A DNA stretch of 64,000 bases from Hylemonella gracilis. Its GTDB lineage: Bacteria; Pseudomonadota; Gammaproteobacteria; Burkholderiales; Burkholderiaceae_C. Under the pieces are notes generated by a model. That model had not been told where the DNA came from. It saw only the letters and a program-made list of their open reading frames with translations, and did no database searches. Location of the stretch: the NCBI RefSeq assembly GCF_004328645.1, contig NZ_CP031395.1:3435501-3499500 (forward strand). The letters are read 5' to 3'. Below, piece by piece: positions 17,057 to 32,471 of this stretch (positions within the stretch are counted from its first letter, which is position 1; the number at the start of each line of letters is the position of its first letter). A program made the translations under genes and the position numbers.

Positions 17057-18349
17057 ATGGAACTGGCCGTACTCTCCATCACTTTCCTCGCCCTGCTGCT
17101 CATCGGCGTGCCCGTGGCTTTCTCGATTGGCCTGGCCTCCGTGGCCACCGTGCTCTACGCCGGTGTGCCGGTGCCCGTCGTTTTCCAGAAGATGGTTGGC
17201 GGCATGCAGGTTTTCTCCTTCATGGCCATCCCCTTCTTCGTGTTCGCCGGTGAACTCATGCTCTACGGCGGCATCGCCGACCGCATCGTGCGCTTCGCCA
17301 ACAGCCTCGTGGGCCATGTGCGCGGCGGCCTGGGCATGAGCAACGTCGTCGGCTGCACGCTGTTCGGCGGCGTGTCGGGCTCGGCCTTGGCCGATGTGTC
17401 CGCCATGGGTTCAGTGATGATCCCGCTGATGAAAAAGGAAGGCTACGACGCCGACTATGCGGTCAACGTCACCACCCACGCCGCTCTGGTTGGCGTGCTG
17501 ATGCCGACCTCGCACAACATCATCATCTTCACGCTGGCCACCACGGGCATCGCCTCGGTCAGCGTGCTCGCCATGATCCTGGCCGGTGTCATACCCGCGC
17601 TGCTGCTCACGCTGTGCAACCTGGGCGCGGCCTATTACGTCGCGGTCAAGCGCGGATACGCCACGCGTGGCCAGTTCCCCGGCTGGCGCGAAGTGCTGCG
17701 CACCGCGATGGCCGCTGCGCCCGGCCTGCTGATCGTCGTCATCATCCTGGCAGGCATTCTTTCGGGCATCTTCACGCCCGCCGAATCGGCCTCGGTGGCG
17801 GTGCTGTGGGCCTTGCTGGTCACTGCGCTGGTGTACCGCTCACTCAAGTGGCAGGACTTCATGAAGGCCTGCGCGAAAGCCTGCAAGACCACGGGGGTGG
17901 TGCTGCTGCTGATCGGCATCTCCTCGGCCTTCGGCTACTTCATGGCCTTGTACGAAGTACCCCAGAAGACCGGCGAGCTGATGCAGAGCATCAGCAGCGA
18001 GCCCTGGGTGATCTTCCTGATGATCAACATCCTGCTGTTCCTGCTCGGCACCTTCCTCGACATGGCCGCCACCATCCTGGTCTGCACGCCCATCTTCCTG
18101 CCCATCGCAGTGCAGTTCGGCATGGATCCGGTGCAGTTCGGCATCGTGATGCTGATCAACTGCGCGCTGGGTCTGAACACCCCGCCAGTGGGCGTGACAC
18201 AGTTCGTCGGCTGCGCAATCGGCGAGATCTCGGTCGGGCAGGTCATGCGATCCATCCTGCCCTTCTATGGCGCGCTCACGTTCTGTCTGATGCTCGTGAC
18301 CTACGTGCCAGCCTTCTCGCTCTGGCTGCCCCACATGCTGATCAAGTGA
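17057..18349 (+). CDS. TRAP transporter large permease subunit (DctM)
   Basis: A polytopic membrane protein of 430 residues matching full-length DctM. Typical segments are visible: VPVAFSIGLASVATVLYAG, GGVSGSALADVSAMGSVMIPLM, HNIIIFTLATTG, and GLNTPPVGVTQFVGCAIG near the C-terminus. It carries the transport path of the uronate TRAP system. It lies 42 bases after dctQ and 31 bases before the enolase-superfamily gene, all in one operon. Confidence 0.95.
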   Translation: MELAVLSITFLALLLIGVPVAFSIGLASVATVLYAGVPVPVVFQKMVGGMQVFSFMAIPFFVFAGELMLYGGIADRIVRFANSLVGHVRGGLGMSNVVGCTLFGGVSGSALADVSAMGSVMIPLMKKEGYDADYAVNVTTHAALVGVLMPTSHNIIIFTLATTGIASVSVLAMILAGVIPALLLTLCNLGAAYYVAVKRGYATRGQFPGWREVLRTAMAAAPGLLIVVIILAGILSGIFTPAESASVAVLWALLVTALVYRSLKWQDFMKACAKACKTTGVVLLLIGISSAFGYFMALYEVPQKTGELMQSISSEPWVIFLMINILLFLLGTFLDMAATILVCTPIFLPIAVQFGMDPVQFGIVMLINCALGLNTPPVGVTQFVGCAIGEISVGQVMRSILPFYGALTFCLMLVTYVPAFSLWLPHMLIK

Positions 18350-18380
18350 CCCTGGACATCCCTCCCGTTTCCCGCCCGCC

Positions 18381-19676
18381 ATGAGTACCTCGCACGCCAT
18401 CCGGCACGTCCGCGTCACGCCCATCGCCTTCCGCGATCCACCGCTGCTCAACGCAGCGGGCATCCACGAGCCCTGGGCGCTGCGCTCCATCATCGAGATC
18501 GAGACGGCTTCGGGCCTGGTGGGGATCAACGAAAGCTACGGCGATCTGCCCATGCTTGAGGCCTTGGCCAAGGCCGCGCCCGCCTTGCAGGGGTTGTCGC
18601 CCTGGTCGCTCAATGAGATGGAAGTGCGCGTGCGTGCGCTGGTCACGCCGCCGAAACAAACCACCTCGGAGTTCCTGACGCAACAGGTCTCGCTGGCGCC
18701 AGGCACGCATGTCTCCAAGACCGTGGCCAAGGTGATCAGCGCCTTTGAAGTGGCGATGATGGACCTGCAAGGTCAGTTGGCGAACGCGCCCGTGGTGGAC
18801 TTGCTGGGCGGCGCGGCGCGCGACCGCGTGCCCTACTCGGCCTACCTGTTCTACAAGTACGCCGAACACATCGAGCAGCCTTATGCGCCTGATGCCTGGG
18901 GCGCAGCGCTCACGCCCGAGCAGCTCGTCGCCCAGGCGCGGCGCATGATCGACCAGTACGGTTTCCAGAGCATCAAGCTCAAGGCGGGCGCTCTGCCGCC
19001 CGAGCAGGAGGCTGCGGGCATCCTGGCGCTGGCGACGGCCTTCCCGGGCAAGCCGCTGCGCATCGACCCCAACGGCAATTGGACGGTGGAAACCAGCCTG
19101 AAGATCGTGCAGCAGTTGCGCGGCGTGCTGGAGTATTACGAAGACCCGGCGCCCCGCCTGGACGGCATGGCCGCCGTGGCGCGCGAATGCGACGTGCCCC
19201 TGGCCACCAACATGGTGGTGACCGACTTCGCCGAGTTCCGTCGCAATGTCGAGATGGGCTGCCCCGTCAAGATCGTCCTCAGTGACCACCACTACTGGGG
19301 TGGCCTGCGTGCCACGCAGCAGTTGTCCATGCTCTGCCGCACCTTCGACCTGGGGCTGTCCATGCACAGCAATTCGCACCTGGGCATCAGCCTGGTGGCC
19401 ATGACCCACCTCTGCGCCAGCGTGCCGCTGCTGACCTACGCCTGCGACACGCACTATCCCTGGCAGGACGAGGAAATCGTCACCGGCGGCCGCCTGAAGT
19501 TCGAGAACGGCAGCCTGCGTGTGCCCACCGGCCCCGGCCTGGGCGTGACGATCGACCGCGAGGCCCTGGCCCGCCTGCACGACAATTACCTGCGCTGCGG
19601 CATCCGCAACCGCGACGACCTGAGGCAGATGAAAAAGTACGACCCGACGTTCACGGGCGTCCAGCCGCGCTTCTGA
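18381..19676 (+). CDS. Enolase-superfamily glucarate dehydratase-related protein
   Basis: A protein of 431 residues, a divergent relative of glucarate dehydratase and distinct from the gudD product in the same island. It keeps the K-x-K pair (SIKLKAG), the ligands in IDPNGNW, YYEDPAP and LATNMVV, and the base histidine in MHSNSHLG. The residues around these differ from the gudD copy (DPNGNW for DPNGGW, HSNSHLG for HSNNHFD, SDHHYWGG for DPHFWTM). Catalysis of an aldarate or aldonate dehydration is likely but the substrate is open; the E. coli GudX-like group is a comparison. Fourth structural gene after udh and the TRAP membrane genes. Confidence 0.85.
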   Translation: MSTSHAIRHVRVTPIAFRDPPLLNAAGIHEPWALRSIIEIETASGLVGINESYGDLPMLEALAKAAPALQGLSPWSLNEMEVRVRALVTPPKQTTSEFLTQQVSLAPGTHVSKTVAKVISAFEVAMMDLQGQLANAPVVDLLGGAARDRVPYSAYLFYKYAEHIEQPYAPDAWGAALTPEQLVAQARRMIDQYGFQSIKLKAGALPPEQEAAGILALATAFPGKPLRIDPNGNWTVETSLKIVQQLRGVLEYYEDPAPRLDGMAAVARECDVPLATNMVVTDFAEFRRNVEMGCPVKIVLSDHHYWGGLRATQQLSMLCRTFDLGLSMHSNSHLGISLVAMTHLCASVPLLTYACDTHYPWQDEEIVTGGRLKFENGSLRVPTGPGLGVTIDREALARLHDNYLRCGIRNRDDLRQMKKYDPTFTGVQPRF

Positions 19677-19787
19677 AACCGCCGGGCGAGGCGCACGGAC
19701 AAACATACGGCCCTCGTCTTGCGCAGATCACGGTTCTGACGCGTGACAACATCACGCTTTTGTCCAAGTCCAAACGAGGAGACATTC

Positions 19788-20783
19788 ATGCAACGTCGTA
19801 CGCTGATCCACCGCGTCATCTGCGCCGGTACTCTGCTGCTGAGCGCCACCTGTTTCACCCTGCCTGCCGCCGCGCAAGGCAGCTGGCCCACCGGCAAAGC
19901 CATCACCTACCTGGTGCCCTTCGCACCCGGGGGCAACACGGACACGCTTGCGCGCCTGATCGCTCCGGCCTTGAGCACGGCACTGGGCACACCGGTGGTC
20001 ATCGACAACAAGGGCGGCGCGGGCGGCAGCGTGGGCTCTGCGATCGCGGCACGCGCACCCGCCGATGGCTACACGATTCTGGGCGGCACCATCAGCTCGC
20101 ACGCGATCAACGTCAGCCTGTACGCCAAGATCGACTACGACCCGATCAAGTCCTTCATGCCCGTGGCCATGCTGGGCTCAGGCCCGCTGGTGCTGGTGGT
20201 GCCTGCCGCCAGCCCCTACAAAACGTTGAACGATGTGCTGGCCGCCAGCAAGGCCCGAGACGGCGGCCTGTCCTCGGCCTCGCCGGGCACCGGCACGTCC
20301 CCGCACATGGCGCTGGAGCTGCTGTCTTACCAATCCGGCGTGAAGTTCACGCACGTGCCCTACAAAGGCAGCGGCCCGGCCGTGCAGGACGTGATCGGCG
20401 GCCAGGTGGACATGATGTTCGACACCACGCTCATCGTTGGCCCCCACATCCAGTCTGGCAAACTGCGCCCCATCGCGGTGACCAGCGCCAAGCGCCTGGA
20501 GTCCCTGCCGGACGTGCCGACCATCGCCGAAGCCGGTCAGAAGGGTTTCGACATGGGTTCCTGGCAAGCCGTGTTCGCGCCCGCTGGCACGCCCAAGGCG
20601 GTCGTGGATCGCCTGCACGCGGAGATCATGAAGATCGTCGCCACACCCGACATTCAGGCACGCCTGAAAAGTTTTGGCATGGTGCCGTCCACCATGACAC
20701 CCGCCCAGCTCGCCGACTACCAGAAAGCAGAAGTCGCCAAGTGGGCTCAGGTGATCAAGGCGGCGGGCATCAAGGCCGATTGA
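19788..20783 (+). CDS. Bug/TctC-family substrate-binding protein (third copy)
   Basis: A periplasmic receptor of 331 residues with a long signal peptide (MQRRTLIHRVICAGTLLLSA onward, cleavage near AAAQG) and the Bug hallmark AITYLVPFAPGGNTD. It also has VPYKGSGPAVQD and SWQAVFAPAGTP, conserved in the group. CGAGGAGAC precedes the ATG at 19788, ruling out the longer frame. It is inside the plus-strand operon between the enolase-family gene and the lactonase. No TctAB partner lies in the window. Confidence 0.9.
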   Translation: MQRRTLIHRVICAGTLLLSATCFTLPAAAQGSWPTGKAITYLVPFAPGGNTDTLARLIAPALSTALGTPVVIDNKGGAGGSVGSAIAARAPADGYTILGGTISSHAINVSLYAKIDYDPIKSFMPVAMLGSGPLVLVVPAASPYKTLNDVLAASKARDGGLSSASPGTGTSPHMALELLSYQSGVKFTHVPYKGSGPAVQDVIGGQVDMMFDTTLIVGPHIQSGKLRPIAVTSAKRLESLPDVPTIAEAGQKGFDMGSWQAVFAPAGTPKAVVDRLHAEIMKIVATPDIQARLKSFGMVPSTMTPAQLADYQKAEVAKWAQVIKAAGIKAD

Positions 20784-20811
20784 TTCCCCGCGCACCGAAC
20801 CTCGCATCACC

Positions 20812-21840
20812 ATGTCCGTTTCTCCCTCTACACCGGCCACGGTCTACGTGTCCAATGCCGACAGCCGGGACATCAGCGTGCTGCGCCTGGACCGCGAGCA
20901 CGGCAGCTTGAGCCTGGTGCAGACCTTGCCCGTGGGCGGCATGGTGATGCCCCTGGCCCTGAGTCCTCAGCGGCATGTGCTGTACGCCGCGCTGCGTTCG
21001 GAGCCTTATGCGGTCCTGGCTTTCACGATCGACCCTGCCACGGGCCGGCTCAGCGAGCTGGGCAGGGCTGCCCTGCCGGACAGCATGGCCTACATCGCCG
21101 CCGACCACAGCGGGCGATGGCTCTTCGCCGCGTCTTACGGCGGCAACCGCGCCAGCCTGTCGCCGATTGCGGCGGACGGCCAGCCTGCACCGGCTGTTCA
21201 GATCGTGCCCAATGGCAAGAATGCCCATGCAGCCATCCCCGACGCGGCCAACCGCCATGTTTACATCACCAGTCTTGGAACGGACCAGGTTTTCCAGTGG
21301 CGTTTTGACGCAGGCAGTGGACAGCTCACCGCCAACGATCCGCCCACGATGGAGGCCCGCGCTGGCAGTGGACCGCGCCATCTGGTCTTCCACCCCAATG
21401 GTCGCCACGCCTACCTGCTGGGCGAGCTGGATGCCACGGTGGAATTGCTCGAGGTCGACGCCGGCCGGGGCCAGCTCAGACGCAAGCAGCACTGGCCTAC
21501 CCTGCCGCCGGATTTCACCGGCAAGGCCTGGGCCGCCGACCTTCACCTGACGCCCGATGGTCGTTTCCTCTACACTTGCGAGCGCACCTCCAGCACCTTG
21601 GCCATCTGGCGGGTGGATGCGGCCAGCGGTGCACTGAGTCTGGTCGGGCACCAGACCACGGAACAGCAGCCACGCGGCTTCCAGATCGACAGCTCCGGCC
21701 GCTGGCTGATCGCGGCCGGACAGGTCTCCCATGCCATCACCCTCTACAAGATAGACCCTGACAGTGGCCGCCTCAACGCAACGCAGCGCATGAACGTGGG
21801 CCAGGGCCCGAACTGGATCGAGATCGTCGATCACCATTGA
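20812..21840 (+). CDS. Lactonase family protein (7-bladed beta-propeller, Pgl/YbhE type)
   Basis: A cytoplasmic lactonase of 342 residues in the Lactonase/6-phosphogluconolactonase YbhE family. Repeated blade motifs are visible: [38 protein letters not shown] and [11 protein letters not shown], each closing a blade with D-x-x-(S/T)-G-x-[21 protein letters not shown] is the family's most conserved segment. There is no signal peptide. Uronate dehydrogenase yields aldaro-1,5-lactones, so the likely role is ring opening to galactarate or glucarate (inference from context). It is followed at once by garD. Confidence 0.85.
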
Positions 21841-21845
21841 ACGCC

Positions 21846-23435
21846 ATGAGCAACTCGCCCATCATCATCCGCATGCAGGCCACGGACAACGTGGCCATCG
21901 TCGCCAACGAAGGCGGCCTGCCTGCGGGCACGGCGCTGGGCGCCGAGTACCCCGGCCTCACGCTGCGCGACAAGGTACCGCAGGCGCACAAGGTCGCGCT
22001 GGTGGACATTCCGGTCGGTACGGCGATCCTGCGCTACGGTGTGCCCATCGGCTACGCCAAGGCCGACATCCCGGCCGGCAGTTGGGTGCATGAGCGCCTG
22101 CTGGACATGCCGGCCGCGCGTGAACTGCAAGGCCTGCCCATGGCCACCGTCAAGCGGCCCACGCCCGAGCCCCTGTCGGGCCACACCTTCGAGGGCTACC
22201 GCAACCCGGACGGCTCGGTCGGCACGCGCAACTTGCTGGCCATCACGACCACGGTGCAGTGCGTGGCCGGGGTGGTGGACGTGGCGGTGGAACGCATCCG
22301 CAAGGAACTGCTGCCGAAGTACCCGAACGTCGATGGCGTCGTTGGCCTGGAGCACACCTACGGCTGCGGCGTGGCGATTGACGCGCCCGAGGCACCGATC
22401 CCGATCCGCACGCTGCGCAACATCAGCCTCAACCCCAACTTCGGCGGCGAGGTGATGGTGGTCAGCCTGGGTTGCGAGAAGCTGCAGCCCGAGCGCTTGC
22501 TGCCGCCCGGGAGTTTCCGCGGCATCCCGATCCAGGAAGCGGGTCAGCAAGGCGAACAAATCGACGACAAGCTCGACGTGGTCTGCCTGCAGGACAGCGC
22601 GCACATCGGCTTCATGAGCATGATCGACGACATCATGGTCACGGCCCAAAGGCATCTGGAACGCCTGAACGCGCGCCGCCGCGAGACCGTGCCGGCCAGC
22701 GAGTTGGTGGTGGGCGTGCAGTGCGGGGGCAGCGATGCATTTTCCGGCGTGACGGCCAACCCCGCCGTGGGCTATATGGCCGATCTGCTGGTGCGCGCGG
22801 GTGCCACCATCATGTTCAGCGAGAACACCGAGGTGCGCGACGCGGTGGAACAGCTCACCAGCCGCGCCGCCACGCCGGCCGTGGCCGAGGAAATCGTGCG
22901 CGAACTCGGCTGGTACGACCAGTACCTGGAACGCGGTCGCGTGGACCGCGCCGCCAACACCACGCCGGGCAACAAGGCCGGCGGCCTGTCGAACATCGTC
23001 GAGAAGGCCATGGGCTCCATCATCAAGAGCGGCACGGCGCCCATCGCCCACGTGCTCTCGCCCGGCAGCAAGCTGAGTCGTGAGCAACGTGGCCTGGTCT
23101 ACGCGGCCACGCCCGCCTCCGACTTCATCTGCGGCACGCTGCAACTCGCGGCAGGCATGAACCTGCACGTCTTCACCACGGGCCGCGGCACCCCCTATGG
23201 CTTGGCCGAATGCCCGGTGATCAAGGTGGCCACGCGCACCGAGCTCGCCAAGCGCTGGCACGACCTGATGGACGTGAACGCCGGCCGTGTGGCCGACGGT
23301 GAGCTCACGATCGAGGAAGCGGGTTGGGAGCTCTTCCGTTTGCTGCTCGACGTGGCCAGCGGCAAGAAGACCTGGGCCGAGCAATGGAAGCTGCACAACT
23401 CCCTGGTGCTGTTCAACCCGGCGCCGATCACCTGA
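21846..23435 (+). CDS. garD: Galactarate dehydratase
   Basis: A protein of 529 residues that dehydrates meso-galactarate to 5-keto-4-deoxyglucarate, feeding KdgD. GarD/UxaA features: an N-terminal SAF-like domain, [66 protein letters not shown], and the C-terminal [20 protein letters not shown]. The cysteines and histidine fit a metal-dependent dehydratase. An in-frame TTG at 21837 overlaps the lactonase stop, but the ATG at 21846 is preferred. Last gene of the plus-strand island. Confidence 0.96.
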
Positions 23436-24237: not shown

Positions 24238-27200
24238 TCACGCCTCTTCCAGCACCACCACGTACTGCCCCGCGCGCACGGGTGCGCCTGGCTGCACACG
24301 CAGCTCACGCACCACGCCCTTGCAGGGCGCCTGCAGGGCGATTTCCATCTTCATGGACTCCAGCACGGCCAACACTTGGCCGGCCTGCACGGCCTGGCCC
24401 ACGCTGACTTGCAGCTGCCAGAGGTTGCCCGCGATGAAGCTTTCCACGCCCACCTGACCGGCCGCCAGCGGCGCCTCGTCCGCTGCCTCCACGGCCGCTT
24501 CCGTGCTCTCGAAGTGCGCTTGGCCGGTGGCGATCCAGCGTTCACGCTCCGCATTGAATGCGGCCTGTTGGTGCGCGCGGAAGGCGGCGATGCCCTCGGC
24601 TTCGCGCGCAAGCAAGGCCTGGTAATCGGCCAGGGCCAGCTCCGTCTGCTCGATGCGCAGCGGATAACGGCCCAGCGGAAAGTCACGGCGGATGCGCAAC
24701 AGTTCCTCGGCGCTGACCGGCTCGAAGCGGATCTGGTCGAAGAAGCGCAGCAGCCAGGGCTGGCCACCGAAGGCGGCCATGTCCTCGTGCATGTAGCGGT
24801 AGCGATTCCACATCTGCAGGGTGCGGCCCACGAACTGGTAACCGCCAGGCCCTTCCATGCCGTAGACGCAGAGGTAGGCCCCGCCGATGCCCACCGAATT
24901 TTCCGCCGTCCAGGTGCGCGCGGGGTTGTACTTGGTGGTCACCAGGCGGTGGCGCGGGTCCAGCGGCGTGGCCACCGGCGCGCCCAGGTACACATCGCCC
25001 AGGCCCAGCACCAGGTAGCTGGCTTCGAAGACAATGCGCCGCACCTCGTCGAGGCCGCTCAGGTCATTGATGCGGCGGATGAACTCCAGATTGCTCGGGC
25101 ACCAGGGCGCGTCCTTGCGCACCGTGGTCATGTACTTCTCGATGGCCAGTTGGCAGGCCGGGTCGTCCCAGGACAAGGGCAGGTGCACGATGCGCGAAGG
25201 CACCTTCAAGTCCCGCGCGGCGCAGACGCTGTCCCACAAGCCCGCGAGATCCTGGAGCAGTTGCGCCAGGGGCAGTTGGGTGGGGTCGTAGTGGACTTGC
25301 AAGGAGCGGATGCCCGGCGTGAGGTCGATCACACCCGGCAGGCTGCCCGCGGCGCGGCGCGCCTCGAGCGTCTGCATCAGCGCGTGAACGCGGAAGCGCA
25401 GCACCAGGTCCAGCTCAGGTGGACCGACTTCAAGCAGGAGATGGGTGTCGCCCGACAGCCGCGCCAGGAGGCGCTGCTCGCCCTGTCCGAGGTCGAGCAC
25501 GATGGGTGAGGAACGATGCGCTTCGACGGGCGTGGGCGACCACTCCAGGGCCGAGGGCTGCAGGGCACGCACCTCCTCGCGCCACGCCCCCGCCAGCGCA
25601 CGCGCCGTGGACAGGTCCACGGGCACGAAGCGCAGCTTGTCGCCGGCCTTGAGCTGGCCGAGTTGCCACAGGTCGGCCTCGATCACCGTCACCGGGCAGA
25701 CGAAGCCACCGAGGCTGGGGCCGTCCGGCCCCAGGATCACGGGCATGTCGCCCGTGAAGTCCACCGCGCCCACGGCGTAGGGGTTGTCGTGGATGTTGGA
25801 TGGGTGCAGGCCGGCCTCGCCGCCGCTGTCGCGCGCCCATTCGGGCTTGGGGCCGATCAGGCGCACGCCGGTGCGGCTGGAGTTGAAGTGCACTTCCCAC
25901 TCGGCGGCGAAGAAAGTGTCGATGTAGGCCGGCTGGAAGTACTCGGGCGCGCCGTGCGGGCCGTAGATCACGCGCAGCGTGCGCACACTGGGCAGCGAAG
26001 TCCGTAGCGCGTGCGGCAGCGCCGCACCCTCGCTGGGTTCCCGCAAGGGATGCAGATGCAGCACATCCCCGGCCCGCAAGGCCCGGCCCACATGGCCGCC
26101 GAACTGGCCCAGGGTGAAGGTGCTCTGGCTGCCCAGGTAGTCCGGCAGGTCCAGGCCGCCGCGCAGACAGAGGTAGCTGCGCGCGCCCTCCCCGGCCATG
26201 CCGCCCAGGCGCAGCGTGGCGCCGGCAGGAATGGCGAACACCGTGTCCATCGGCCGTGCCTCGCCGTCCAGCGTGATGCTCAGGGCCGCGCCCGTGACCG
26301 CTACCACGGCCGCGGCGTGAAAGCGCAGTGTGGGCCCGTTCATGGTGATTTCGAGCGCCGCCGCGGACTGTGCATTGTCCAGCAGGCGGTTGCCCAGGCG
26401 CAGCGCGCGATCGTCCATGGGTCCGGAAGGCGGCACGCCCACGGCCCAGTAGCCGACCCGGCCCGGCCAGTCCTGGACCGTGGTCTGGGTGCCACCGGCG
26501 ATCACCTCGACCGTGTCGGCGCGGTAGACCAGTTGTTCGAGGCAACGCGTCCAGGGCTGGCCCGTGGCAAAAGGCGCATCGGCGAGGATCTGGCGCAGGT
26601 AACCGCGGTTGGTCTCGACGCCATAGAGTTGCGTGCGCGCCAGCGCCTCGTCCAGGGCGCTTCGAGCGCGCTCACGGGCATCCGGCGCATTGAGCCCTTC
26701 CGCCCAGGTGATGAGCTTGGCCACCATCGGGTCGAAGAAGGGCGGGATCTCGCAGCCCGCCTCGACCCAGGTGTCGATGCGCAGGGCCTGGCCGTCGGCC
26801 TCGGGAAATTCGACCTGGGTCAGCAAGCCCGGCGAAGGCTGGAAGTTGCGCCCCGGATCTTCGGCGTACAACCGCGCCTGGATGGCATGGCCGCGTGGCC
26901 GCAACGTCCGCGCCAATTCGTGCAAAGGCGGCAGATCCCCGGCAGCAAGTTCGACCATCCAGCGCACCAGGTCCACGCCCCAGACCTGCTCGGTCACGCC
27001 ATGCTCGACTTGCAAGCGCGTGTTGACCTCGAGGAAGTAGAAGCGCCGCGCCTGGTCGTCGTAGACGAACTCCACCGTGCCCGCGCCGCGGTAGTTCACC
27101 GCCTTGCCGAGCCGGATGGCGGCGGCGCAGAGTTCTTCCGCCATGCCCTCGGGCAAATTGGGCGCCGGGGTTTCCTCCAGCACCTTCTGGTTGCGCCGCT

Positions 27201-27891
27201 GCACCGAGCAGTCGCGCACGCCCAGCGCGATCACCTCGCCCCACCCGTCGCCGAAGATCTGCACCTCCAGGTGGCGCGCGCGCTCGATGTACTGCTCGAT
27301 GAAGACGCCCGAGTCGCTGAAGTTGTTCTGCCCCAGACGGCGCACGGCCTCGTAGGCCTCGCGCAATTCGGAAGCGGAACGGCAGACCCGCATGCCGATG
27401 CCGCCGCCGCCCGCCGTGCTCTTGAGCATGATGGGGTAGCCCACCTTGCGGCTGGCGGACAGCGCCGCGTCCAGCGTGTCCAGCAGTTCCGTGCCCTCAA
27501 GCAAGGGCAGGCCCTGCCGCCGGGCGATGGCGCGCGCGGTGTGCTTGAGGCCGAAGAGCCGCAGTTGCTCGGGTGTGGGGCCGACAAACGCAATGCCCGC
27601 CTGCTCGCAGGCTTCGGCGAAGGCCGCGTTCTCGGACAGGAAACCATAACCCGGGTGGATGGCCTGCGCGCCGCTGGCGCGGGCCGCGGCCAGGATCTTC
27701 TCGATCACGAGGTAGGTTTGCGCTGCCGGGCCTTCGCCCAGGCTGATGGCGGTGTCGGCTTGCCGGATGTGCAGGCTGGCCGCATCGGCCTCGGAATACA
27801 CGGCCACGCCCTGCACATTCAAGGCGCGCAGCGTGCGCAGGATGCGGCAGGCGATGGCGCCGCGGTTGGCGATGAGCAGTTTGTCAAACAT
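24238..27891 (-). CDS. Biotin-dependent guanidine (urea-type) carboxylase
   Basis: A protein of 1217 residues. Domain order: biotin carboxylase with ATP-grasp (1-450; start MFDKLLIANRGAIACRILRT, KSTAGGGGIGMRVC loop), an AHS2/KipA-like segment near 480-770 (TTVQDWPGRVGYWAVGVPPSG), an AHS1/KipI-like segment near 780-1050, and a C-terminal biotinyl domain with K1181 in ESMKM. This is the urea carboxylase architecture without the allophanate hydrolase part. The guanidine-I riboswitch upstream and the DUF1989 genes indicate guanidine as substrate, giving carboxyguanidine (established for such operons; inferred here). Start ATG 27891; the longer frame to 28041 is rejected. Last gene of the operon. 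Confidence 0.92.
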   Translation of the reverse strand: MFDKLLIANRGAIACRILRTLRALNVQGVAVYSEADAASLHIRQADTAISLGEGPAAQTYLVIEKILAAARASGAQAIHPGYGFLSENAAFAEACEQAGIAFVGPTPEQLRLFGLKHTARAIARRQGLPLLEGTELLDTLDAALSASRKVGYPIMLKSTAGGGGIGMRVCRSASELREAYEAVRRLGQNNFSDSGVFIEQYIERARHLEVQIFGDGWGEVIALGVRDCSVQRRNQKVLEETPAPNLPEGMAEELCAAAIRLGKAVNYRGAGTVEFVYDDQARRFYFLEVNTRLQVEHGVTEQVWGVDLVRWMVELAAGDLPPLHELARTLRPRGHAIQARLYAEDPGRNFQPSPGLLTQVEFPEADGQALRIDTWVEAGCEIPPFFDPMVAKLITWAEGLNAPDARERARSALDEALARTQLYGVETNRGYLRQILADAPFATGQPWTRCLEQLVYRADTVEVIAGGTQTTVQDWPGRVGYWAVGVPPSGPMDDRALRLGNRLLDNAQSAAALEITMNGPTLRFHAAAVVAVTGAALSITLDGEARPMDTVFAIPAGATLRLGGMAGEGARSYLCLRGGLDLPDYLGSQSTFTLGQFGGHVGRALRAGDVLHLHPLREPSEGAALPHALRTSLPSVRTLRVIYGPHGAPEYFQPAYIDTFFAAEWEVHFNSSRTGVRLIGPKPEWARDSGGEAGLHPSNIHDNPYAVGAVDFTGDMPVILGPDGPSLGGFVCPVTVIEADLWQLGQLKAGDKLRFVPVDLSTARALAGAWREEVRALQPSALEWSPTPVEAHRSSPIVLDLGQGEQRLLARLSGDTHLLLEVGPPELDLVLRFRVHALMQTLEARRAAGSLPGVIDLTPGIRSLQVHYDPTQLPLAQLLQDLAGLWDSVCAARDLKVPSRIVHLPLSWDDPACQLAIEKYMTTVRKDAPWCPSNLEFIRRINDLSGLDEVRRIVFEASYLVLGLGDVYLGAPVATPLDPRHRLVTTKYNPARTWTAENSVGIGGAYLCVYGMEGPGGYQFVGRTLQMWNRYRYMHEDMAAFGGQPWLLRFFDQIRFEPVSAEELLRIRRDFPLGRYPLRIEQTELALADYQALLAREAEGIAAFRAHQQAAFNAERERWIATGQAHFESTEAAVEAADEAPLAAGQVGVESFIAGNLWQLQVSVGQAVQAGQVLAVLESMKMEIALQAPCKGVVRELRVQPGAPVRAGQYVVVLEEA

Positions 27892-27997
27892 TCGAGTCAC
27901 TCTCGAAAGATGGCGGGCCGTCCCGCGCTGGTGAAACCACGCCATGGCCGTCCATGGCGGGAGCAGACTGCTGTCAGGGTCTCGCGTTCGCGGCGGG

Positions 27998-28633
27998 TCA
28001 ATTCCAGACCAGCACCTCGGCCGGCGTCGGGTTCCAGCCATTGCAGGGGTTGTTGAGCTGCGGGCAGTTGGAGATCAGGGTGATCACGTCCATCTCGGCG
28101 CGCAGTTCCACGTACTTGCCGGGCGCGGAGATACCGTCTTCGAAGGTCAGGCCACCCTCGGGCGTCACGGGCACGTTCATGAAGAAGTTGATGTTGGCGC
28201 CGATGTCGCGCTTGCCCAGGCGCCCGTCGTGCAGGCAGGCGCAGAGGAAGTTGTCGCGGCAGCTGTGCATGTAACGCTTGCCCAGGGCGTAACGCACGCT
28301 GTTGCTCTCCTGCGCGCAGGCGCCGCCCAGGGTGTCGTGGCGGCCGCAGGTGTCGGCCACGATGGTCAGCAGCGGATTGCCTCGGTTGGAGTAGAGCACC
28401 GTGCCGGTGCTCAGGTAGACCCGGTTTTGTCGACGCAGGGTGCGCTGCGCGTCATAACGCTCGCGCGGGTTGGTCGCGCTGTAGAACAGGGTGTCCACGG
28501 CCTGGTTACCCTCGAGGTCGAGGATGCGCAGGGTCTGGCCCCGTTTCACCTCGAACAGATAGGGTTCGCCGGCCGGAATGACGTGGCGGAAATGGGCCTG
28601 CTCGGCCCGCAGGGTGCTGGCGGTGAGTGTCAT
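27998..28633 (-). CDS. DUF1989 protein, candidate carboxyguanidine deiminase subunit (smaller)
   Basis: A protein of 211 residues in the DUF1989/urea-carboxylase-associated (UAAP) family. It contains [36 protein letters not shown] and [15 protein letters not shown], the cysteine/histidine-rich set of the family. In studied operons the two DUF1989 proteins form a heteromeric carboxyguanidine deiminase that yields allophanate and ammonia. GAGGAG precedes the ATG at 28633, so the longer frame to 28723 is not used. It follows the larger DUF1989 gene by 10 bases and lies 106 bases before the carboxylase. Confidence 0.9.
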
Positions 28634-28643
28634 GCGAGGCTCC

Positions 28644-29393
28644 TCACAGAAAAAGCCGTTCGGTGTTGTGGAAGGCGCGTGTGTTCTCGGGACGCGAGCC
28701 GCGGCACGCCGCAGCCGGGTCACCGCCCTTGTCGGTGCGCCAGTTGAGCCGCACCGGGCGGGGCGCGTACTCCGGGTTCGGGTCCATCGGATGTTGCAGG
28801 GCCGTCAGCACGACCAGCGTGTCCATGGGCGCGTACAACTCGACGTAGTCGCCGGGCTGGGAGTTGTCGGACACGAAATGGAAAGCGCCCTCGGCATCGA
28901 CCGTGACCTTGCTGAACAGGTTGAGCACCATCAGCAGGTCGGGCAGGTCCAGGTTCCACTTGCCCATTTCGACCAGCAGGTTGTCCACGCCATTGCGGAA
29001 GAAGCCATTGCGCAGTTCCTGGTAACGACCGCTGCCGTACTTCTCGCGCACCTCGGCCGCGTCCAGCACGCCGCCCAGGCTGTCGTGCCAGCCGCAGCTG
29101 TCGGCGGTGATGGCGGCCAGCACGCGGCCCATGTCCGAGTACAGGCAATGACCCGCGGTGAGCTTGGCGGTGTGCTGGCCCTTGAGCGTGTCTGGCAGGT
29201 TCAGGCGCTCGCTGTGCGCGTGGGCGTTGAGCAGCATCAGGCTGACGTTGGCGCCGCCAGTCAGGTCGGTGAGGCGCAGCGTCTGGCCGCGCTGGAGCAC
29301 GAAAGACAGGTGGCCGCCTCCGGGCACCGTCTCCTCGTAGAGTTCGGCGCGCAGGGCCAATGCCTCGTCGCGCGGTTCAGGGTTCAGGTTCAT
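28644..29393 (-). CDS. DUF1989 protein, candidate carboxyguanidine deiminase subunit (larger)
   Basis: A protein of 249 residues related to the downstream DUF1989 gene: [60 protein letters not shown] and [16 protein letters not shown]. The start ATG at 29393 overlaps the ATPase stop (4-base ATGA overlap), showing tight operon coupling. It pairs with the smaller DUF1989 protein as the presumed carboxyguanidine deiminase. Which gene corresponds to which published subunit name cannot be settled from sequence alone. Confidence 0.9.
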
Positions 29394-30187
29394 TCAGCCT
29401 CCTGGCGATGTTCGTTCAGCAGATGCGGCGGCAAGGCGGCGATCGCCTCGCGGGCCGACTTGCGGTCGGCATTGAGCCGGATGTCGTAGGTGATGCGCGC
29501 GCCGTAGGCCAGTGGCGCGTGGGGGTCGTGGCGCACCTTGTCGAAGACAAGCAGGCGCGTGCCCAGGTGAAAGCCCTCGCTCAGGTCGTGCGTGACCATG
29601 AAGACCGTCAAGCCCGTTTCGCGCCACAGGTCCAGCAGCAGCGCATGCATGTCCTTGCGGATGCCGGGGTCGAGCGCGCCGAAGGGCTCGTCCAGCAGCA
29701 GCAGGCGCGGGCGCGCGATCAAGGCCTGCGCGATGGCCAGGCGCTGCTGCATGCCGCCCGACAGCTGGCTGGGGTACTGACGCAAGGCGGCGCCCAGGCC
29801 CACGCGCTCCAGCATCTGCGCGGCCTGCGCACGCGCTTCTTTCTTGGCCTTGCCCCACAGTCGCCCGGTCAGCCGCGCGCGCGGCAGTTCCAGCCCCAGG
29901 GCCACGTTGTCCAGCACGGTCAGGTGCGGGAACACCGAATAGCGTTGGAACACCACGCCCCGGTCAGCGTCGGGTTCGTCACACAAAGGTCGCTCCTGCA
30001 GCAGCAACTGCCCCTTGCTGGGGCGCTCCTGCCCCAGCAGCAGGCGCAGAAAGGTGGACTTGCCGCAGCCTGAGGCGCCCACCAGGGTGCAGAACTCGCC
30101 TTCGTCCACGGCGAGGTTCAGGCCCTCGAGCACTACATGCTCGCCGTAACGCTGCCAGACGTTGCGGATGTCGAGGTAGGTACTCAT
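29390..30187 (-). CDS. ABC transporter ATP-binding protein (guanidine/urea-type importer)
   Basis: An ATPase of 265 residues: Walker A GASGCGKST, Q-loop VVFQRYSVFPHLTVLDN, signature LSGGMQQRLAIAQAL, Walker B RLLLLDEPFGALD, and H-loop VTHDLSEG. It resembles nitrate/taurine/NMT1-class importer ATPases (TauB/SsuB type). AAGGAGG lies 6 bases before the ATG at 30187. The gene overlaps both neighbours by 4 bases (permease upstream, DUF1989 downstream). Energises uptake of the riboswitch-controlled system, with guanidine the presumed cargo. Confidence 0.93.
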   Translation of the reverse strand: MSTYLDIRNVWQRYGEHVVLEGLNLAVDEGEFCTLVGASGCGKSTFLRLLLGQERPSKGQLLLQERPLCDEPDADRGVVFQRYSVFPHLTVLDNVALGLELPRARLTGRLWGKAKKEARAQAAQMLERVGLGAALRQYPSQLSGGMQQRLAIAQALIARPRLLLLDEPFGALDPGIRKDMHALLLDLWRETGLTVFMVTHDLSEGFHLGTRLLVFDKVRHDPHAPLAYGARITYDIRLNADRKSAREAIAALPPHLLNEHRQEAE

Positions 30188-30999
30188 GTCCGACCTCCTT
30201 CCGACCACGGAAACAGCCAGCGGTTGAGCCCGCGCAGGCCCCAATCCATCAACCAGGCCAGCAGCGTGATCCAGACCACGTAGGGCAGGATCACGTCCAT
30301 GGCCAGGTAACGGCGTACGAGGAAGATGCGGTAGCCCAAGCCGGCCGTCGCGGAAATCGCCTCCGCCGAGATCAGGAACAGCCAGGCCGAGCCCAGCATC
30401 AGCCGCAGCGACACCAGCAGGCGAGACAACAGCTGCGGCAGCACCACGCGCAAGACCAGCGTCCAGCTGTTGGCGCCCAGGGTCTGGGCCTTCACGAACA
30501 GCTCCTGCGGGATCTCGCGCGCGCGCTGCTCCAGGTCACGCGCCAGGATGGGCGCGACGCCAATCACGATCAGCATGACCTTGGACAGTTCATCCAGGCC
30601 AAAGACGATGAACAGGATGGGCAGCACAGCCAGCGGCGGCACCATGGAGACCACCGTCATCATCGGCGACAAGGGCGCGCGCAGCAGGGGGAACACGCCC
30701 GCCGCCACGCCAAACACCAGTCCCATCAAGGCCGCGATGCCCAGACCCAGGCCCAGGCGGATCAGGCTGGCCGCGGTGTCGCTCCATAGCAGATACTCGC
30801 CGCTGCGCTTGTCGGCCTCGAAGGCCATGCGGGCCATGGCGTTCACCATCTGCGTCAGGCCGGGCAGCAGTTTGTCGTCCGGGTTGTCGGTCAGGCGCGC
30901 CGCCGAGGCGATGCCGTAGACCAACGCGAACAGGATCAGCGGCAACAGCGCCAGCAGCCAGCGCCCACCTCGACCGGGTTGACGGTTGATGAATCGCAT
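30184..30999 (-). CDS. ABC transporter permease (guanidine/urea-type importer)
   Basis: An inner-membrane permease of 271 residues with a BPD_transp_1 domain. The EAA-like loop reads EQRAREIPQELFVKAQTLGANSW with the conserved glycine. Membrane segments include LLALLPLILFALVYGIASA, LGLGIAALMGLVFGVAAG, LAVLPILFIVFGL and VWITLLAWLMDWGL. SsuC/TauC-like. Start ATG 30999, with AAGGAAGG ahead. Overlaps the ATPase start (ATGA). The binding protein is 92 bases upstream. Confidence 0.92.
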   Translation of the reverse strand: MRFINRQPGRGGRWLLALLPLILFALVYGIASAARLTDNPDDKLLPGLTQMVNAMARMAFEADKRSGEYLLWSDTAASLIRLGLGLGIAALMGLVFGVAAGVFPLLRAPLSPMMTVVSMVPPLAVLPILFIVFGLDELSKVMLIVIGVAPILARDLEQRAREIPQELFVKAQTLGANSWTLVLRVVLPQLLSRLLVSLRLMLGSAWLFLISAEAISATAGLGYRIFLVRRYLAMDVILPYVVWITLLAWLMDWGLRGLNRWLFPWSEGGRT

Positions 31000-31091: not shown

Positions 31092-32150
31092 TCAGAGCTT
31101 GCCTTCGGCGGCCTGTTGCATGTAAGTCGCGTCGAAGCGCAGCTTCACGTTCTTGGCGTTGCCATTGACCTTGCCGCCGGGGAACGCCACGCCGATCGCG
31201 TCCGCGCTCTTGGCGCCGTCGCCCAGCAGACCCTTCTCGAAGGAGAACTGCGAGACGCGCTTCATGATGGCCGGCAGCTCGGCGCTGGTGGTGAACTTGC
31301 TCGCGTCGGCGGCCGTGTAGTACATGGCGGTGGTCTTGAGCTGCGCCTCGTAACCCGGCAGGTCCGTGCCCGAGGCCTTGGCCATGTGCGTGAGCGCGGC
31401 CGCGTTCTTGGCCTTCATCAGCGCCATCACCTCGTACCAGGCCCCGGTCAACGCCTTGCCAAACGCCGGGTTGTCCTTGAGCGTCTGGGTGTTGACCACC
31501 ATCAGGTCCAGGATTTCGCCGGGGATCTTGCTCGAATCGAACACCAGGGACGTGCCAGGCGCGGCCTTGATTTCGGAGAGCTGCGGATTCCAGGCCACGG
31601 CGGCCTTGACTTGCGATGTGGCGAACGCGGCCACGATGTCGGCATCCGAGGTGTTGACCACCTTCACGTCCTTCTCGGACAGACCCGCGCTCTGCAGCCC
31701 GCGCGCCAGCAGGTAGTGCGAGACGGAGAGCTCGACCAGGTTCACGTCCAGGCCCTTCAGGTCTTTCACCGTCTTGCCCGCGCCCTTGAGCACGATGCCG
31801 TCATTGCCGCTGGAATAGTCGCCCACGATCAGGGCCGTGCTGTCCACGCCGCCCGCGGCGGGAATCGTCAGCGCATCCATGTTCGTCATGGTGCAGCCAT
31901 CGAACTTGCCGGCGGTGTACTGGTTGATGGACTCGACGTAGTCGTTGAGCTGCGTGACCTTGATCTCGATGCCGTATTTCTTGGCCCACTTGCTCACGAT
32001 GCCCGAAGCCTGGGCGTAGTCCCAGGGCATCCAGCCCGCGTAGATGGTCCAGCAGACATCGAAGGTTTTCTTGGGTGCGGCATGGGCCGATAGACCCAGC
32101 AAGGCGGCGAGACCGAGCACGGAAACACCGAACAGGCGACGCAGATTCAT
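31092..32150 (-). CDS. ABC transporter substrate-binding protein (guanidine/urea-type)
   Basis: A periplasmic receptor of 352 residues in the NMT1/TauA/SsuA-like group, annotated elsewhere as putative urea binding protein. The signal peptide MNLRRLFGVSVLGLAALLGLSAHA is followed by CWTIYAGWMPWDYAQASG, typical of the group, then TNMDALTIPAAGGVDSTALIVGD. The frame runs open to 32300, but that part is the riboswitch, so the ATG at 32150 is used, with CCGGAG about 10 bases ahead. First gene of the guanidine operon. Confidence 0.92.
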   Translation of the reverse strand: MNLRRLFGVSVLGLAALLGLSAHAAPKKTFDVCWTIYAGWMPWDYAQASGIVSKWAKKYGIEIKVTQLNDYVESINQYTAGKFDGCTMTNMDALTIPAAGGVDSTALIVGDYSSGNDGIVLKGAGKTVKDLKGLDVNLVELSVSHYLLARGLQSAGLSEKDVKVVNTSDADIVAAFATSQVKAAVAWNPQLSEIKAAPGTSLVFDSSKIPGEILDLMVVNTQTLKDNPAFGKALTGAWYEVMALMKAKNAAALTHMAKASGTDLPGYEAQLKTTAMYYTAADASKFTTSAELPAIMKRVSQFSFEKGLLGDGAKSADAIGVAFPGGKVNGNAKNVKLRFDATYMQQAAEGKL

Positions 32151-32228
32151 GATGGCACTCCGGTAAGAGGTGGCGTTGAATGGACAAAAGAGCACGGCGC
32201 GGGAGCAGCACGGCACTGTGGCCTTGCT

Positions 32229-32330
32229 TCTCTCCCGGGCTTTTGTCCCGCCGTGTAACCTCGAACCGAGGTCGCCAGCTCTCGGACCAGACATCCGCAT
32301 CCTGCGACACGAACCGGAACCCTAGCCAGC
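32229..32330 (-). promoter_or_regulatory. Guanidine-I (ykkC) riboswitch
   Basis: On the minus strand the conserved blocks follow in order: CTAGGGTTCCGG (32325 to 32314), GGTCCGAGAGCTGGCGACC (about 32289 to 32271), TTACACGGCGGGACAAAAG, and GCCCGGGAGA near 32231-32241. This is the guanidine-I consensus. It ends about 80 bases upstream of the binding-protein ATG. Guanidine binding turns expression on in this class. A downstream stretch (32182-32205) can pair with the 3' aptamer blocks (see findings). Confidence 0.93.
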
Positions 32331-32471
32331 CATTGAGGTGATGCAGCGCTGAGGCCGCTCCCGTGCCCTCAACCATGCAAACACCATGCCAGAAATCAGG
32401 CAGAGAAGTATGCCCACGGCGCACTGGCACGGTGCATGGTGGTGTGGCCGGCCATCTCCGAGACTGCGGTA

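Follow-up and report, generated by a model that had tools for sequence, protein, structure and literature searches.

The 64 kb stretch of Hylemonella DNA analysed here, referred to as the window, contains on its minus strand an operon that most probably serves the import and degradation of guanidine under the control of two guanidine riboswitches. Judged from sequence, we give this reading a probability of about 0.93, with the ligand and substrate assignments relying on homology. A previous interpretation of the same DNA made from the letters alone (the sequence-only reading) had already proposed guanidine rather than urea catabolism, and this proposal is now supported by a covariance match, by two aspartates of the carboxylase (D711 and D966) and by the agreement between residue type and riboswitch in a sample of genomes from the same order. 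A gene set carrying urea family names is thus almost certainly in need of an annotation correction, being for guanidine, and Hylemonella-like bacteria gain guanidine as a likely nitrogen source.

The order of elements on the minus strand is Guanidine-I riboswitch, substrate-binding protein, permease, ATPase, UAAP1, UAAP2, Guanidine-II riboswitch and carboxylase. The substrate-binding protein of the ABC importer (31092..32150, with ATG 32150 chosen as start in this analysis and GGAG upstream of it) matches TIGR03427 with 563.9 bits against a cut-off of 333.9 and is annotated as "putative urea ABC transporter substrate-binding protein". The importer permease (30184..30999) contains PF00528 and is TauC/SsuC-like at scores below the cut-offs, and the ATPase (29390..30187, start ATG 30187 chosen here, with GGAGGT upstream) contains PF00005; for these two proteins, no family of the library with the TIGR families exceeded its cut-off among the matches listed. 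The next two genes code for DUF1989 proteins (PF09347), the predicted subunits of a carboxyguanidine deiminase, namely UAAP1 (28644..29393; TIGR03425, 320.2 bits against 205.95) and UAAP2 (27998..28633, start ATG 28633 chosen in this analysis; TIGR03424, 331.6 bits against 284.7). Both CgdAB-type subunits are therefore present, each scoring over its family cut-off, if TIGR03425 and TIGR03424 are taken, as we assume, to represent CgdA and CgdB. The published definition of CgdA and CgdB is given in terms of clades of PF09347 (PMC11410670). The predicted guanidine carboxylase gene gca (24238..27891, start ATG 27891) encodes a protein of 1217 amino acids with Asp711 and Asp966, which is annotated as urea carboxylase and matches TIGR02712 with 1834.8 bits against 1303.85. 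The arrangement described by the sequence-only reading, a Guanidine-I element upstream of a transporter, two DUF1989 genes and a urea-type carboxylase, is thereby confirmed by Rfam and by the gene families, and its expectation that annotation would speak of urea proved correct, since the families that exceed their cut-offs bear urea names in the case of the binding protein, the two DUF1989 proteins and the carboxylase. Downstream of the carboxylase, the same strand continues with a gene for a RibD_C-domain reductase-like protein (24136-23471), which was excluded from the operon because a homologue adjoins the carboxylase in just two of 110 loci, the window and Hylemonella gracilis (E up to 1e-10; some of these loci are short or have a flank of 1.5 kb).

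A cmscan search of the whole window at the Rfam gathering thresholds, a covariance search which the sequence-only reading had suggested for the leader, yielded two matches in all. The leader of the operon contains a Guanidine-I (ykkC) aptamer at 32230..32336 on the minus strand (RF00442, 86.7 bits against a gathering threshold of 63, E 4.1e-14), which is a full-length match (model positions 1-107) and the sole match of its family in the single-contig genome of 3.82 Mb (E up to 0.001); the element had previously been placed at 32229-32330, shifted by a few bases from the 32336-32230 found here. A competing helix at 32201..32236 on the same strand, in which the GGGAG at the 3' end of the aptamer pairs with a downstream CUCCC, represents a putative expression platform, with pair probabilities of 0.91-0.93 for the five pairs when the full leader is folded. 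The GGGAG is predicted to pair with the tail in 66 of the 68 distinct leaders, compared with 40.2 (sd 3.3) when the tails are shuffled, and this pairing matches what should be the ligand-free OFF structure. The usual expression platform of Guanidine-I riboswitches is an intrinsic terminator (PMC12186494). A terminator scan called none after the aptamer of the window, a CUCC[UC] motif lies within 70 nt of the aptamer in only 51 of 78 leaders (29% of shuffles), and only 17 of 78 have a U-rich stretch behind the aptamer, including the leader of the window, where it comes about 10 nt late; these observations speak rather against switching by a plain terminator. In predicted stability, the full leader does not exceed its shuffles (z -0.57). 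As modelled, the Guanidine-I platform is supported with respect to the competing helix and weakly with respect to the U-tract.

The second match, which is absent from the sequence-only reading, is a Guanidine-II (mini-ykkC) aptamer inside the operon, located at 27913..27959 on the minus strand (RF01068, 39.3 bits against a gathering threshold of 32, E 2.5e-4). It lies in the 106-nt gap between UAAP2 and the carboxylase, 21 nt before the carboxylase start, is the sole RF01068 match in the genome (E up to 0.001), and reaches 37.4 bits with a model built without the window sequence. The aptamer consists of two hairpins with the stems CGCCAUGG/CCAUGGCG and GCGGG/CCCGC, whose loops both read ACGG, as in the ACGR loops described as a rule for this class (PMC2864571). 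A short hairpin, UUCGAG-AGUGA-CUCGAA (27891..27907, minus strand), spans the likely ribosome-binding site of the carboxylase gene and reaches the A of its ATG. This hairpin alone has a predicted stability of -5.9 kcal/mol and 4% of the shuffled spacers are as stable, so it is weakly better than the shuffles, while the 58 distinct spacers between aptamer and ATG show a mean z of -1.71, with 19 of the 58 at p<0.05 against shuffles. The predicted folding of the spacer thus fits translational control at the Guanidine-II site, without proving it, and such control has been proposed for the class (PMC12508155).

The substrate of the carboxylase may be judged from two positions, which were counted from an alignment on the assumption that the 5i8i chain is numbered as in PMC11410670: D711 aligns with Asn1330 of the urea amidolyase of K. 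lactis and D966 with its Asp1584 (5i8i). The two proteins belong to the same family over nearly their whole length (5i8i and 3va7, about 1068-1070 bits), but the K. lactis enzyme differs in having Asn1330 in place of Asp711, and its chain of 1829 residues is extended ahead of the carboxylase part by about 620 residues which the window protein lacks. In PMC11410670, Asp at position 1584 was demanded of a guanidine carboxylase, and Asp at position 1330 served to separate guanidine from urea carboxylases, and PMC12186494 associates Asp with guanidine carboxylases and Asn with urea carboxylases. That the operon may nevertheless encode a true urea carboxylase system of the urea amidolyase pathway, with riboswitches kept for some other reason, is suggested by the library names, which are urea carboxylase, urea amidolyase associated proteins and putative urea ABC transporter substrate-binding protein. 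This interpretation is hardly credible in view of the Asp instead of Asn at the specificity position, the occurrence of guanidine aptamers from two classes within a single operon and a separate urease in the genome (950.7 bits), and it was rejected on the combined grounds of specificity residues, riboswitches and urease. Because the genome has its own urease together with one TIGR02712 match over cut-off, a second, ATP-costing route for urea appears unneeded. The three Asn-type carboxylases of the order sample also speak against urea as the substrate here, as they lack a linked guanidine riboswitch and have an allophanate hydrolase gene just upstream.

This control within the order Burkholderiales was based on 200 evenly drawn genomes, which were searched with four families. 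Carboxylases were found in 30 of the genomes (32 matches), and the residues were read at 30 loci, one per genome, leaving out the extra matches in G063 and G091. The position corresponding to 1330 is Asp in 27 and Asn in 3 of the 30 loci, and that corresponding to 1584 is Asp in 29, the remaining one being unreadable because it is cut by a contig end. A Guanidine-I riboswitch occurs upstream on the same strand and contig, within up to about 7 kb, in 22 of the 30 genomes, a Guanidine-II riboswitch just before the carboxylase in 15 (11 over the Rfam cut-off and 4 with our own model R1 alone, run with filters off), and both classes in 12. A linked guanidine riboswitch is present for 25 of the 27 Asp carboxylases (Guanidine-I in 22, Guanidine-II without Guanidine-I in 3), the exceptions being G166 and G126, in which the contig begins 45 bases ahead of the match, while none of the 3 Asn carboxylases has one, even in searches with filters off (best Guanidine-II score 10.5 bits, best Guanidine-I score 5.2 bits). 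Residue type and riboswitch therefore agree, with three Asn cases only on one side of the comparison. An apparent difference in Guanidine-II between close sister carboxylases was rejected as a threshold artefact, as the filters-off search adds four loci (L074, L075, L087 and L095; 29.4-32.5 bits) which Rfam does not report at its cut-off and on whose relatives model R1 had been trained. This R1 search covered the 19 loci without an Rfam match in two batches (14 + 5) and gave 4 positives; the best score of the later batch of five loci, which included the three Asn-type ones, was 16.4 bits (L096), the best Asn-type score was 10.5 bits, and these were not counted. Three genomes of one genus (G015, G063 and G183) combine a Guanidine-I riboswitch and an Asp-type carboxylase, but a genome-wide search at E 1e-140 gave no match to allophanate hydrolase in any of them, the G015 assembly being a single contig of 3.7 Mb. 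Pairs of Guanidine-I elements in opposite orientation, with a few hundred bases between them, are found in G063:C9 (89941 -, 90340 +) and G178:C1 (5112294 -, 5113074 +).

The layout was further compared with that of named relatives, for which 80 loci were kept of 437 confirmed carboxylase relatives. The closest named carboxylase is that of Hylemonella gracilis (L101; 91% in the best segment), and the other loci kept are mostly from Pseudomonas, with 74-79% identity in the best segment. Asp is present at both specificity positions in all 80 loci. A Guanidine-II model built from 23 other sequences of the class, with that of the window excluded, detects an aptamer ahead of the carboxylase in each of the 80 loci, 13 to 46 nt from the ATG; the 84 matches of this model comprise the 80 named loci, the window and 3 sites elsewhere in the loci. 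Guanidine-I was found upstream in 77 of 80, with upstream DNA of about 1806, 140 and 3285 bases in the three loci without it (L127, L137 and L166, respectively). Given these frequencies, chance can be excluded as the reason for the placement of the riboswitches, and the two-class layout, which occurs in all 77 nearest named loci whose upstream sequence is long enough, fits the view that Guanidine-I and Guanidine-II have different jobs. Some loci of the Pseudomonas group (L107, L115, L119, L122, L123, L126, L135, L139, L141 and L158) carry two Guanidine-I copies upstream of the carboxylase, and an additional downstream copy is present in L133, L140, L142, L148, L154 and L167. In L171 and L174, Guanidine-I elements are located on opposite strands, again separated by a few hundred bases (3892 -, 4685 +).

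Allophanate hydrolase (AtzF), the enzyme expected for the last step, is encoded apart from the operon, a point which the sequence-only reading did not make. A location within the operon was rejected, as there is no match over cut-off there, and the sole AtzF over cut-off is found outside the window at G000:C1:92091-93701 (725.5 bits against 511.05), which is about 450 kb away from the operon at about 3.46 Mb if the contig is circular. Its neighbours code for a binding protein of the SsuA type and for a protein of an ABC transporter, and a search of 19 kb around atzF for a guanidine riboswitch gave no Rfam match of any kind at E up to 0.5. The AtzF of H. gracilis is unlinked as well (3.56 Mb, with the carboxylase at about 3.02 Mb). 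In 60 of the 80 named loci, tblastn (E up to 1e-40) places an AtzF homologue downstream of the carboxylase and on its strand, 10 to 1098 bases beyond the point where the carboxylase match ends; in 59 of these 60 the distance stays within 1 kb. The downstream gene is absent in the other 20 loci, among them H. gracilis L101; 19 of these span 8 kb of downstream sequence, and L122 spans 99 bases. Since the genomes of all 20 contain an AtzF over cut-off somewhere, an unlinked AtzF appears to be a minority but repeated arrangement. The unlinked AtzF of the window strain presumably serves the guanidine pathway, a role which is assumed, given that the gene lies apart from the operon and that the search around it revealed no guanidine riboswitch. 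It offers a straightforward example from nature in which to ask if guanidine control of the last step is needed.

The operon is an ordinary member of a kind known from Vreelandella, Raoultella, Klebsiella and Erwinia. As described in PMC12508155, Vreelandella boliviensis likewise has a Guanidine-I leader, an ABC importer, cgdA/cgdB and an internal Guanidine-II between cgdB and gca, a two-riboswitch layout which the same source reports to be shared by several other bacteria. In-line probing gave apparent KD values of 44 uM guanidine for the Guanidine-I and 93 uM for the internal Guanidine-II riboswitch of this species, and the proteins of the operon rose on guanidine as seen by proteomics (PMC12508155). 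The V. boliviensis operon differs in having mgdH/mgdL and then atzF after gca (PMC12508155), whereas the window shows the RibD_C gene and a distant atzF. This difference also bears on whether the pathway acts on methylguanidine or some other small guanidino compound, with guanidine as one of a range of substrates. The internal Guanidine-II of V. boliviensis binds methylguanidine, too (apparent KD 83 uM), but its Guanidine-I showed no methylguanidine binding in the range tested, and the demethylating genes mgdH and mgdL, which lie between gca and atzF in that species (PMC12508155), are not what follows the carboxylase in the window, where the next gene on the strand is the one with the RibD_C domain. 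A broader substrate range of this sort is very unlikely, and guanidine is retained as the probable substrate.

In Raoultella terrigena, Klebsiella michiganensis and Erwinia rhapontici, the importer and deiminase genes are similarly associated with Guanidine-I and the carboxylase with Guanidine-II, but allophanate hydrolase joins the carboxylase under Guanidine-II in these three enterobacteria (PMC12186494), whereas that of the window strain is encoded apart. Pseudomonas and its relatives (L102-L180) share the riboswitch layout, contain the nearest carboxylases outside Hylemonella and fall into the same clade as far as they are included in the tree described below, although most loci of this group differ from the window by the downstream same-strand AtzF gene. 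A review of tandem riboswitches gives no tandem arrangement for the guanidine classes (PMC9481103), which is no conflict if tandem is taken to mean neighbouring aptamers. A search for literature on Hylemonella and guanidine together found no relevant paper. The present analysis adds to this a second riboswitch in the window, a residue test with a small control, a survey of the layout and the unlinked AtzF.

The operon may be envisaged to work as follows, with the aptamers recognized by family score, the gene families, the specificity residues, the layout in relatives and the location of AtzF as observations, and the aptamer ligands and enzyme steps adopted from the literature. Guanidine would bind to the Guanidine-I aptamer of the leader, which in its ligand-bound form would keep the 3' GGGAG out of the downstream hairpin, so that the long transcript is made; this mode of switching is what we infer for the window strain. 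The ABC importer would then take up guanidine, the carboxylase would convert it to carboxyguanidine with the use of ATP and biotin, and the two DUF1989 proteins would deiminate carboxyguanidine to allophanate and ammonia. Binding of guanidine to the Guanidine-II hairpins is proposed to free the ribosome-binding site of the carboxylase gene, by which the large ATP-using enzyme would be made only while guanidine persists. The resulting allophanate would be finished by the allophanate hydrolase encoded elsewhere in the chromosome.

The origin of the operon was approached with a FastTree tree of 51 carboxylases, consisting of 27 from the order sample, 3 from other named betaproteobacteria, 19 from the named loci and the two from Hylemonella; two short order-sample sequences were left out, and every fourth of the 76 remaining named loci was taken. 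The carboxylases of the window and of H. gracilis group together with a support of 100, and this pair is located inside a clade of 25 members that also includes the Pseudomonas group, Herbaspirillum, Parazoarcus and G178 and likewise has a support of 100. Two carboxylases from the same family of bacteria, that of G049 with 59.8% in the best segment and the Asn-type one of G133 with 51.3%, branch outside that clade. Because the carboxylase groups with those of Pseudomonas and not with most of its own order, the tree suggests horizontal transfer as its simplest reading, with the direction left unassigned and with the provisos that FastTree is a quick method and that G049, G058 and G166 have long branches. 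A more speculative and, in our estimate, rather doubtful scenario is that the operon was acquired from a Pseudomonas-like donor without the last enzyme, that the AtzF of the host completes the pathway in trans, and that Guanidine-II acts as a brake on carboxylase translation which limits allophanate. If this were true, two riboswitches would meter guanidine into a pathway whose last step escapes guanidine control.

The surroundings of the operon contain further genes of other apparent functions. A large hybrid sensor kinase and an HD-domain response regulator are encoded at 37576-32472 on the minus strand, ending about 135 bases before Guanidine-I on the same strand. Beyond the RibD_C gene, sugar-acid genes follow on the other strand, where a TRAP transporter permease, a glucarate dehydratase-like protein, a lactonase-like protein and a galactarate dehydratase are encoded at 17057-23435 (plus strand), in what looks like a cluster for sugar-acid catabolism.
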